NCBI GenBank assembly: GCA_012519705.1 | Contig: JAAYPR010000005.1 | Coordinates: 1 to 60,516 of the forward strand | Reading direction: 5' to 3' | Origin: Campylobacteraceae bacterium | GTDB taxonomy: Bacteria; Campylobacterota; Campylobacteria; Campylobacterales; Campylobacteraceae | Length of the DNA stretch: 60,516 nucleotides | Shown: in pieces, positions 22,141-57,511 of the stretch | How the letters are laid out: every line of letters starts with the position of its first letter | How positions within the stretch are numbered: position 1 is the stretch's first letter | Made by a program: the position numbers and the translations under genes | Notes under the pieces: model-generated | The model's input: only the letters and a program-made list of their open reading frames with translations | What the model was told of the DNA's origin: nothing | Database searches by the model: none

Positions 22141-23046
22141 CTATTTTAAAACCAAATTTAAAAACCCACTTCTAGCGTCAAATTTAGACTCTATTTTATA
22201 AATTTCGCCGTTAAACTCAAACTCCAAACTCTGTGAATGTAGAAGTAGTCTTTTAGCTCTAGTTATTTCCGCCCTACTCTTTTCACTAACTTTATCATCC
22301 AAAAACTCTTCAGCAAATTTATCACTCACGCCATACATTGTATCTCCGATGATGGGATGTTTCACGTGAAACAAATGCACTCTTATTTGATGCTGACGCC
22401 CTGTTGTAGGGATACACTCAACCAAAGTCGCATCTAAACTTTCATAATTTTCAACTACTTTAAACATAGTTTTGCTAAATTTGCCATCATCACGGACCTG
22501 AATTCTGTTTTTCAAAGTTGTTGCACTTTTATCAAGCCCTAAATTTGCTACAACTTCAAACTCTTTTTTTATAACTCCTCCAACCATAGCAAGATAAGTT
22601 TTTTTAACTTCTCCATTTTCAAATTTTAGTTTTAACTCTTTTTCTACCGCCCTATTTTTAGATACAAGTAAAACTCCACTTGTCTCTTTGTCAAGTCTAT
22701 GGGCCACGCTTGCATCTCTACCAAAAAGATGCCAAATTTCATCATTCATAGAGTAAGTTGTATTTCTACCGTTTGGATGAGTTAAAACTCCGCTTGGTTT
22801 ATCAAAGACAGCAAAACTCTCATTTTCAAAAATCGGCTTTAAACCCCTTGGCTCACACTCATACTCCACCAAAAAAACATCTCCGTTTAAAACACTGCTT
22901 TTATCTACGCTTTCACCTTTTGAGTTTAGCACCCTGCCCCTATCTATGAGCCTTTGAGCATCTCTCATTGAGTAGCCTAAATTTAGTAAAATTTGATAAC
23001 TTTTTTCATTGTTAGCGACAGCGATTTTCTTTGGAAGATAAGGCAA
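22141..23046 (-). CDS. RluA-family pseudouridine synthase
   Basis: An RNA pseudouridine synthase of 301 residues. An N-terminal S4-like region (GYSMRDAQRLIDRGRV) is followed by the RluA catalytic motif HRLDKETSGVLL with the catalytic Asp, and RQHQIRVHLFHVKHPIIGD. The exact target (RluC, RluD or tRNA type) is not clear. The start is TTG at 23046 after AAAGGA. The stop codon TAG is supplied by the end of the adjoining insertion sequence. Reconstructing the site without the element suggests the original protein had three further residues. Confidence 0.9.
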   Translation of the reverse strand: MPYLPKKIAVANNEKSYQILLNLGYSMRDAQRLIDRGRVLNSKGESVDKSSVLNGDVFLVEYECEPRGLKPIFENESFAVFDKPSGVLTHPNGRNTTYSMNDEIWHLFGRDASVAHRLDKETSGVLLVSKNRAVEKELKLKFENGEVKKTYLAMVGGVIKKEFEVVANLGLDKSATTLKNRIQVRDDGKFSKTMFKVVENYESLDATLVECIPTTGRQHQIRVHLFHVKHPIIGDTMYGVSDKFAEEFLDDKVSEKSRAEITRAKRLLLHSQSLEFEFNGEIYKIESKFDARSGFLNLVLK

Positions 23047-54351: not shown

Positions 54352-55428
54352 TTATAAAATCGTTGGCATTATAACGTTTATTAAGCCATCACTGCTTACT
54401 AAAAATGCACTCTCTTCGTTATTATACTCAAGTTTAAAATGAATATTTTCTATGCTATTTAAAAAGTCAAATATATATCTATTTGTAATCCTTAAATTTA
54501 AATCACTTACTACATCATTAACTAACTCTATCTCTGTTTTAGCTTCGCTATTATCTTCACTTATACTTTCAAAAATAAGTGAGTTTGGTTTGATGGTGAT
54601 TTTCATCTTTTCACAAACCATACTTATAGTTTTCATCCCTTCTAAAAATTTATCTCTTGGAAGAGTTAAAACATGAGCAAACTCTTTTGGGATAGCTCTT
54701 TCATAGTCTGGGAATTTTCTATTAATCAGCTTTGTAAAAAACTCAAAGTTTTCGCTAATTGCTATTAAACTACTCTCATCATAGTAAATTTCTACACTAT
54801 CAAAAAATAACTTTTGCATCTCATTTATCGCTCTTTTTGGGATGTTTAGATAGTTTTCATTTGGCAAAACTTCATTTTTACCCTCTATCGTATAAAGTCC
54901 CATTCTTCTACCATCTGTTCCAACTAAGTTAATAGAGTTTTCTTTTATATCTACAAAAGCACCATTTAGTGCGAAATTTGGGTGATTTGTGTCTATTGTA
55001 GGGAAAATCTTTTTTAACCCTCTTGCAAAACTGTTTGAATCTATTTCAAATTTTTTCTTATTTCCAATTTCTGGAAATTGTGGAAAATCTAGTGAGTTAT
55101 ACATAGGAAGCTTAAACTTAGATTTTCCTTGTCTTATAAATAAGAAGTTATTCATAGTCTCAACTATAATATCTTCATCTTTTAAACCTTTTAAAATACT
55201 AAGTAGGGTTGATACATTTGCAGTTGCTGATCCTTCTACTTGGATATTTAGGTTTTTAACTTTATATTTTAGTCCTATTTCATAATCAGTTGCTCTAACG
55301 TTTAGTGTTCCATCTTTAGCTTCTATTAAAATATGAGAAGTTATAGAACTAATATCTTTTTTATCAACATAAGGGCTTGTGTTTGAAATTACATTGTTAA
55401 ACAGCATTTTGTTTATTATAAATTTCAT
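54352..55428 (-). CDS. dnaN: DNA polymerase III sliding clamp (beta subunit)
   Basis: It forms the ring that tethers the replicative polymerase to DNA. The 358-residue length and three-domain pattern fit, with VGTDGRRMGLY in the middle domain and the C-terminal VIMPTIL, close to the family ending. It lies between gyrB and dnaA; the intergenic region to dnaA carries origin-like elements. Confidence 0.96.
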   Translation of the reverse strand: MKFIINKMLFNNVISNTSPYVDKKDISSITSHILIEAKDGTLNVRATDYEIGLKYKVKNLNIQVEGSATANVSTLLSILKGLKDEDIIVETMNNFLFIRQGKSKFKLPMYNSLDFPQFPEIGNKKKFEIDSNSFARGLKKIFPTIDTNHPNFALNGAFVDIKENSINLVGTDGRRMGLYTIEGKNEVLPNENYLNIPKRAINEMQKLFFDSVEIYYDESSLIAISENFEFFTKLINRKFPDYERAIPKEFAHVLTLPRDKFLEGMKTISMVCEKMKITIKPNSLIFESISEDNSEAKTEIELVNDVVSDLNLRITNRYIFDFLNSIENIHFKLEYNNEESAFLVSSDGLINVIMPTIL

Positions 55429-55560
55429 AGTGTTCCTTTTATTTTAAATTTAGTAGTAGTGGTAGTAGGTGGACAGTTTATGTGAATACCTTTGTTTAAC
55501 CACGCTATATCTTTGTTTGATGTAAGGTTTAAAAATAGATGTTGTTCACACTGTTTCACT
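55429..55560. promoter_or_regulatory. oriC: Origin element oriC2-like: AT-rich run, DnaA-trios and DnaA boxes
   Basis: Between dnaN and dnaA, an AT-rich segment (55436-55450) is followed by TAG-TAG-TAG-TGG-TAG-TAG (55451-55468), matching DnaA-trio repeats. Next come a GTGGACAG spacer and a DnaA box TGTGAATAC (55481-55489), and a second box TTGTTCACA (55542-55550) overlaps the end of dnaA. The order unwinding region, trios, box and the strand of the trios match the Bacillus-type unwinding module. No unwinding experiment can be inferred, but this is the best origin candidate in the window. Confidence 0.75.
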
Positions 55561-56883
55561 ATTTTTGCCTTGTAGAATTTTATTTTCTATTTCATCAATT
55601 CTAGTTTTTAAATACTCATCAGCGTCCATTAACTCAGTTATTTTTTTAATATTGTGACTAACTGCACTATGGTCTTTTAAACTAAAAAACTTAGCAATGC
55701 CTGGCATTGAGTTAAGAGTTAGCTTTCTAGCTAGATAAATTCCTATCCTTCTAGCTTCAACAATCTCTTTCTTTCTACTTTTGTTTTTTATATCGCTTGG
55801 CTTTACATTTAGCTCTTTTGAAAGAGTTTCAATCACATCTTCAAGATTAATAACCTCTTTTTTCTCTCTGATTTGATCTTTTAAGATGTTTTTTACAAAC
55901 TCAAGCGTTATTTCAACTCTAAGCATGTTAGAGTACATATTTAGTTTAGTTATAACGCTTTCTATCTCTCTAATGTTATCTCCCATATTTGTAGCGATAT
56001 ATTCAACTATTTTGTTATTTAGGGTGATTTTATTATCTTGGCTTTTTTTATTTATAATAGCTATTTTAGTTTCTAGTTCAGGCGGAGTGATGTCTGCTAT
56101 AATGCCACTTTCAAACCTGCTAGTAAGTCTTTCTTCAAAGCCTTTTAGCTTTTTAGGTGGTTTATCACTTATCATAACTATCTGCCCGCCAGCTTGTTTT
56201 AGCTCGTTAAAAGTGTTAAAAAACTCCTCTTGAATCTTATCTGTATTTCCTAAAAATTGGATATCATCGACTAAAAGTACATCAGGTTTTCTATATTTTT
56301 GTCTAAATTTATCCATAGATGAGTTTCTTATATGAAATGTAAAGTCGTTTTTAAACTGTTCGCTTGTGATACATCTAACAACTTTTCCATGCTCTATACA
56401 GTAGTTTCCAATCGCTTGTAAAAGGTGAGTTTTACCAAGCCCACTTGGGCCGTAAATAAAAAGTGGGTTAAAATCTTTCCCAGGATTTTGAGCAACTGAC
56501 TTTGAGCAAGTTGCAGCAAAGCGGTTAGAGTCGCCTATTATAAAGTTTTCAAAGCGGTATGACTCTATCATATTTGTGCTTTGAACTTTGTTCTCTTTTT
56601 TAACTTTTTCTTCTTTTTTGGTTAAGTTTTCTTTTACGCTATCTTGAGAAGTGATTAGAATTTTTGGTTTTACACCTGTTTTTTCTTGGATAATCTCTTC
56701 TATTTTTTGACCATATTTTGTTTGGATAAATTTAGCTATATATTCGTTTGAAGTTTTAAATATCATAAAAGATGGCTTTGAGTTTTTCTCATCAAACTCT
56801 AGTTTTTTTATATATCTATCAAATTCATTTGGTAAAATACTCTTTTCAAGCTCTTTTAAAACTTGAGTTTTAAGTGAAAGCAA
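55546..56883 (-). CDS. dnaA: Chromosomal replication initiator DnaA
   Basis: The AAA+ initiator that binds and opens the origin. It has Walker A GPSGLGKTHLL, Walker B LLVDDIQFLG, and in domain IV the DNA-recognition signature KDHSAVSHNIKKI. Domain I is short and domain II is a Lys/Glu linker. The protein is 445 residues, near the H. pylori length. Genes dnaA, dnaN and gyrB run in the same direction. Confidence 0.97.
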   Translation of the reverse strand: MLSLKTQVLKELEKSILPNEFDRYIKKLEFDEKNSKPSFMIFKTSNEYIAKFIQTKYGQKIEEIIQEKTGVKPKILITSQDSVKENLTKKEEKVKKENKVQSTNMIESYRFENFIIGDSNRFAATCSKSVAQNPGKDFNPLFIYGPSGLGKTHLLQAIGNYCIEHGKVVRCITSEQFKNDFTFHIRNSSMDKFRQKYRKPDVLLVDDIQFLGNTDKIQEEFFNTFNELKQAGGQIVMISDKPPKKLKGFEERLTSRFESGIIADITPPELETKIAIINKKSQDNKITLNNKIVEYIATNMGDNIREIESVITKLNMYSNMLRVEITLEFVKNILKDQIREKKEVINLEDVIETLSKELNVKPSDIKNKSRKKEIVEARRIGIYLARKLTLNSMPGIAKFFSLKDHSAVSHNIKKITELMDADEYLKTRIDEIENKILQGKNSETV

Positions 56884-56958: not shown

Positions 56959-57000
56959 TATTTTTCACTATGTGAATAGAGCGTGAATAAGTTGTGAAAA
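56959..57000. promoter_or_regulatory. Cluster of DnaA-box-like sites upstream of dnaA (oriC1-like)
   Basis: Four sites of the type T(G/T)TTCAC or GTGAA(T/A)A lie close together: TTTTTCACT (56961-56969), TGTGAATAG (56971-56979), CGTGAATAA (56982-56990) and TGTGAAAAG (56993-57001). The spacing is about 10-12 bases, so they lie on one helical face. Such clusters mark the upstream part of the bipartite origin in Helicobacter. The dnaA promoter must lie in the same 124-base gap. Confidence 0.65.
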
Positions 57001-57007
57001 GGAATGA

Positions 57008-57511
57008 ATGAAAATATTAGGAATCGACCCAGGAACTCGCAACTGTGGGTATGCAATCATAGAAAAAAACGGTGTGAATATAAACTTAATTGAAGCAGGG
57101 TTAATCAAAATAAAACCCTCAACTCTAAACTACCAAATAACCGAACTTTGCGAGGGAATTGACATCATTTTTAAAAGTCATGAAATTGATGATGTAGCGA
57201 TTGAGGATATATTTTACGCTTATAACCCTCAAACTGTTTTAAAACTAGCCCAGTTTCGTGGAGCTTTAAGTTTAAGGATTTTGCAACTTCACGGTGAGTT
57301 TTATGAGTATACCCCACTTCAGGTTAAAAAAAGCGTTACAGGCAAAGCAAAGGCTACTAAAGAACAAGTTTCTTTTATGGTTAAAAAGATTTTAGGGATA
57401 AAACAAGAAATCAGGCCACTTGATATAACAGATGCCATCGCCATCGCCCTAGCTCACGCAAACCAGCTTAAATTTAAAGATGGATTTAATAGCAGTAACC
57501 TACAAAAATAA
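57008..57511 (+). CDS. ruvC: Holliday junction resolvase RuvC
   Basis: It cleaves four-way junctions in recombination with RuvAB. Acidic catalytic residues are in [13 protein letters not shown] (D7), [12 protein letters not shown] (E) and [14 protein letters not shown] (two Asp). The length of 167 residues is normal. It diverges from dnaA and its 3' end overlaps the next, convergent gene by 26 bases. Confidence 0.96.

Follow-up and report, generated by a model that had tools for sequence, protein, structure and literature searches.

The question raised by this locus is where the strands of the chromosome first part for replication, and whether the short gap between dnaN and dnaA is that place. 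The DNA analysed (the window) is 60.5 kb long and belongs to an assembly of 1.72 Mb in 52 contigs. On its minus strand lie dnaA, encoding the replication initiator DnaA (55546–56883; TIGR00362, 454 bits against a cut-off of 344), and dnaN, encoding the sliding clamp (54352–55428; TIGR00663, 201 bits, cut-off 138). The pair is flanked on the outside by gyrB, whose product matches TIGR01059 above cut-off, and by ruvC on the plus strand (57008–57511; TIGR00228, 183 bits, cut-off 101). The order ruvC-dnaA-dnaN is typical of the class (PMC5043019). The locus shows what is expected of an epsilonproteobacterial oriC: by profile matches and coordinates, its location in ruvC-dnaA-dnaN, and, by box scan, DnaA boxes with the TTCAC core and box clusters on both sides of dnaA (55481–55560 and 56961–57001). 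From sequence, conservation and orthology, we judge with a probability of about 0.93 that the gap at 55429–55560 is the unwinding half (oriC2) of a Campylobacter-type chromosomal replication origin. The module would be a known system, intact here and conserved across the bacterial order.

Architecture of the dnaA-dnaN gap

The gap holds a DnaA-trio array, TAG TAG TAG TGG TAG TAG, at 55451–55468 of the plus strand, recognized by its sequence, its rarity and its in-register conservation in 62 family genomes. Three TAG triplets (55451–53, 54–56 and 57–59) are followed by TGG (55460–62) and two more TAG (55463–65 and 66–68), which, read 3'→5' away from the box, gives GAT GAT GGT GAT GAT GAT. The original prediction of six consecutive TAG triplets, one imperfect, stands with a correction: five of the six are exact, but the trio consensus has a central A that TGG lacks, and strictly there are five trios, interrupted at the third from the box. 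This imperfection is unremarkable, since of the first three triplets it is the third that varies most across the family.

An AT-rich run and a DnaA box flank the triplets, as had been proposed. On the far side is a run of 14 A/T-only bases (55437–55450), the probable DUE as judged from its sequence and from orthology with the P1-mapped DUE of C. jejuni (PMC6052347); together with the trios it is probably the DNA melted first. On the near side, a 12-bp spacer, GTGGACAGTTTA (55469–55480), separates the first trio from a strong box on the minus strand, GTATTCACA (TGTGAATAC on the plus strand; 55481–55489), the equivalent of C. jejuni box 2, which has an intact TTCAC core and one mismatch to TTWTNCACA. 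Two further boxes lie on the plus strand: TTGTTCACA (55542–55550), which overlaps the dnaA stop codon in the orientation opposite to the trio-proximal box, and the weaker TGTTTCACT (55552–55560) in the 3' end of dnaA. Many relatives carry boxes of the TTGTTCACA orientation (GTGAA on the dnaA strand) after the dnaA stop, and 55560 is a sensible right-hand limit, these two boxes spanning the stop in the window.

With TAG on the plus strand and the box on the 3' side of the array, the trios run 3'-GAT-5' away from the box, a polarity shared by the relatives. In strand, in polarity and in the order of its parts (box, spacer, trio, AT-rich run), the module matches the basal unwinding system (BUS; PMC8287927, PMC8235120), as originally claimed, and the spacing and register of box and trios are conserved, as expected of a BUS. 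The published search rule asks for a DnaA box with, no more than 16 bp away, three or more triplets in a row that carry a central A on the bound strand (PMC8287927). Counted from the strong box, there are two TAG (12 bp away), one TGG and three TAG, the strict run of three beginning 21 bp off; the distance falls within the limit if a weak overlapping box, CTGTCCACC (55468–55476), is taken as the reference, and two close relatives (L008 and L009) conform to the rule outright.

The weak box deserves a closer look. The trio-proximal part of the spacer reads GTGG (CCAC on the minus strand), which may be a local GC-rich element or part of CTGTCCACC, a sequence with three mismatches to TTATCCACA that we considered as a candidate second DnaA box like box 7 of B. 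subtilis. The two readings appear equally likely, because the twin second box, which most relatives have with its core offset by 8 bp, is degenerate in the window and its clade, and CCAC also precedes the trios in relatives with other arrangements, e.g. L024. An arrangement with one box is plausible, given that in B. subtilis the upstream box alone is required for strand separation in vitro (PMC8287927).

The array is rare by any measure applied. Nowhere else in the window are five of six consecutive triplets of any kind identical (homopolymers excluded), and TAG arrays of equal quality occurred on neither strand of 1310 simulated windows (first-order Markov, equal length). Furthermore, the pattern TTCAC-N13-CTACTA-N3-CTACTA has a single mismatch-free match in the 1.72-Mb assembly, at the gap, the next-best sites having two mismatches.

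Conservation and drift of the trios

Homologous gaps were located through DnaA in 62 Campylobacteraceae genomes, and 38 were distinct after near-copy removal. The TTCAC core is kept in nearly all of these 38, and in most family gaps it is followed 13 nt on (14 in genera g9, g11 and g12) by in-register triplets, mostly YTA (CTA or TTA) on the dnaA strand, that is, TAG or TAA on the other. Of the 190 triplets in the 38 gaps, 134 have T in the middle on the dnaA strand; when the phase was randomised 20000 times, the mean was 60.3 and no trial exceeded 113. An A ends 177 of the 190 triplets, and the second triplet from the box, which stays YTA almost everywhere in the family, is so in 33 of 38 gaps. 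Since the spacing of 14 was set by eye in four rows, the better evidence on spacing is an offset-free scan, in which the distance from the TTCAC core to YTAYTA peaks at 13 nt. The register between box and trios is thus tight, while gap length varies from 111 to 164 bp and the distance from trios to dnaN from 34 to 50 bp. Close relatives differ in triplet number (five or six). The conservation on which the original prediction had staked itself is therefore there: triplets and box distance are kept in relatives.

The module extends beyond the family. The comparison outside it covered 20 genomes of the order, drawn from 18 other families. In 18 of these genomes dnaN adjoins dnaA, and 17 of the 18 have a clear box and trio array, the array of L108 being weaker. 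In two members of the order, L107 (G123) and L114 (G129), the DNA downstream of dnaA yielded neither a dnaN within reach nor a clear box and trio array. Exceptions also occur within the family. Genus g7 (L073, L074 and L075), whose DnaA (43–46% identity) ranks with the most divergent in the family, has dnaA-dnaN gaps of 27–34 bp that lack both DnaA box and trio, so that its unwinding site must be elsewhere. In g5, in one clade of g4 and in a side clade of the window's own genus, the box is kept but canonical trios are few, which argues that the family can do without the exact trio sequence.

How these trios have changed is of some interest. In the g4 clade (L023 and L025), CTA on the dnaA strand has often become CAA in register with the box, i.e. 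TAG has become TTG on the bound strand, and the same change is found in the side clade of the window's genus (L020, L021, L036 and L037). This drift thus involves at least two separate lineages, with the second triplet mostly still CTA. Within the drifted rows, 18 of 19 CAA occurrences fall in the trio frame, the rows being related rather than independent. In g5, mostly A-rich triplets follow the second one. Separating lineages with at most two central T from all others takes four or more changes on a DnaA tree of 52 rows; by eye, no consistent change accompanied the drift at the DnaA positions that correspond to E. coli V211 and R245. We tentatively suggest, at somewhat less than even odds, that the triplet recognized by DnaA in single-stranded DNA has drifted in parallel from TAG to TTG within the family, the box register being kept and the second triplet remaining almost always TAG. 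Deviant trios lacking the central adenine were suspected previously (PMC8287927). If the suggestion is right, the drifted triplets are such trios, and those lineages do not need a central A in every triplet. This might be the part of the analysis that a specialist finds new.

Position of the origin and alternative readings

The original prediction called for a switch in GC skew, which was sought in the nearest complete congener (G013; DnaA 78% identical, contig beginning at dnaA) with twenty 20-kb samples. The skew is positive from 0 to ~0.87 Mb and negative from ~0.95 to 1.73 Mb, so that the sign changes near dnaA; the last 20 kb before dnaA are mixed (+0.03). The window itself is strongly negative at 45–55 kb, the side matching, with the strand reversed, the positive first 20 kb of G013. 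Because the sampling was in a relative and the last 20 kb before dnaA are mixed, the skew places the origin only to ~100 kb.

A second group of boxes lies on the other side of dnaA. The ruvC-dnaA gap contains at 56961–57001 a cluster found by box scan (56961–56969 on the plus strand; 56971–56979, 56982–56990 and 56993–57001 on the minus strand), the last three boxes being exactly 11 bp apart, and most complete congeners examined have similar clusters with 10–11 bp spacing. It is probably either an oriC1-like second half of the origin or a dnaA autoregulatory cluster. Bipartite origins are known for the class (PMC5043019), and the arrangement in the window fits these rather than the monopartite case of C. 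jejuni. Elsewhere in the window, another 200-bp stretch (22181–22420) has five DnaA-box-like sites (TTWTNCACA, at most two mismatches), as many as the densest stretch upstream of dnaA. The proposal that the dnaA-dnaN gap is the strand opening site is thus backed by conservation, skew and orthology with C. jejuni, and was incomplete in that it missed the upstream cluster.

Might the first opening instead take place mainly in the ruvC-dnaA gap, leaving the dnaA-dnaN gap an accessory role? The densest box cluster near dnaA is indeed there, with four boxes in 41 bp. However, the sole TAG-type array is in the dnaA-dnaN gap and none accompanies the cluster; A. butzleri, S. denitrificans, W. succinogenes and H. 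pylori all unwind in oriC2, downstream of dnaA (PMC5043019), and C. jejuni does so in the dnaA-dnaN gap (PMC6052347). We consider it very unlikely that the first opening is mainly at the upstream cluster.

Equally improbable, in our view, is that the conserved block serves dnaN as promoter or leader and that the triplets belong to that signal instead of an origin. Proximity speaks for it, in that the first trio stands 34–50 bp before the dnaN start throughout the family and a conserved purine-rich ribosome-binding sequence adjoins that start. The array, however, keeps register with the upstream box (13–14 nt), whereas its distance to dnaN ranges over those 34–50 bp and exceeds 100 bp in L105; a three-base period with the trio consensus is foreign to promoters; and the orthologous gap of C. 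jejuni unwinds with DnaA in vitro (PMC6052347). The variation between five and six triplets in close relatives, and an array that is pure TAG but for one triplet, would also suit a microsatellite made by slippage that came to lie beside a box by chance. To this we give the least credence of all, next to none, as degenerate in-register triplets recur in other families as well as in the 38 distinct gaps, with the strand unchanged and the distance from the box nearly so, and the window has no second triplet array. The unwinding half of an origin is the reading that we retain for the dnaA-dnaN gap.

Proposed mechanism and comparison with known origins

By analogy with C. jejuni and H. pylori, we infer the same DnaA- and trio-dependent unwinding at 55429–55560. 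The C-terminal domain of DnaA would bind the GTATTCACA box (55481–55489) as double-stranded DNA, and an oligomer of ATP-bound DnaA would grow from there onto the plus strand. Its AAA+ domains would each bind a single TAG triplet in single-stranded form and stretch it, which would melt the trios and the A/T run (55437–55468) and allow the helicase to be loaded. The pair of boxes at the dnaA stop and the phased upstream cluster probably act as an accessory scaffold or in regulation. The probable opening site of the chromosome would thereby be narrowed to ~32 bp, with a near-perfect trio array in a Campylobacter relative, as opposed to the degenerate trio of C. jejuni. In addition, the family alignment offers a natural gradation between perfect trios and trios without the central base, from which it could be learned what triplet and what base DnaA needs.

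The closest experimental reference is the dnaA-dnaN gap of C. jejuni, where DnaA-dependent unwinding was mapped with P1 nuclease and where twin boxes overlapping by 1 bp accompany a degenerate trio (PMC6052347). Its experimentally bound box 1, AATTTCAAC (PMC6052347), is found at the twin position in family loci L061 and L063, which read AATTTCACAATTTCAAC and then TTA TTA TTA. Genus g2 is therefore jejuni-like, and the module in the window is an orthologue of the mapped DUE; this likeness is also the ground on which the family is called Campylobacteraceae. The two origins are alike in the gene gap used, in box orientation, in an A/T-rich DUE adjoining the trios and in further boxes in the 3' end of dnaA; the register is also the same, the jejuni-like g2 members having their TTA triplets after 13 nt. 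They differ in that C. jejuni has the twin boxes, no GC-rich element and the degenerate trio, whereas in the window a single strong box is followed by a CCAC element and then by TAG trios that are nearly perfect. Furthermore, the C. jejuni origin is described as monopartite, whereas the window has the extra phased cluster upstream.

In H. pylori and others, strand separation by DnaA needs box and trios (PMC8287927); the box-plus-trio module of H. pylori is functional (PMC8287927), and its trio mutants show no unwinding (PMC8235120). H. pylori oriC2 (box ts2, GC-rich element, DnaA-trio, AT-rich region; PMC8235120) has the module order and polarity of the window, and both have about five CTA-type trios (complement TAG) preceded by a GC-rich element. 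Unlike in the window, dnaA does not lie beside dnaN in H. pylori, and its proximal boxes are the topology-sensitive ts1 and ts2, of which ts1 has no clear counterpart in the window. The BUS of B. subtilis (PMC6669920, PMC8287927) is built on two tandem DnaA boxes (#6 and #7), whereas the window has an epsilonproteobacterial box with the TTCAC core and a degenerate second box; nevertheless, both share a box platform, a short GC-rich spacer, six trio positions and A/T-rich DNA beyond.
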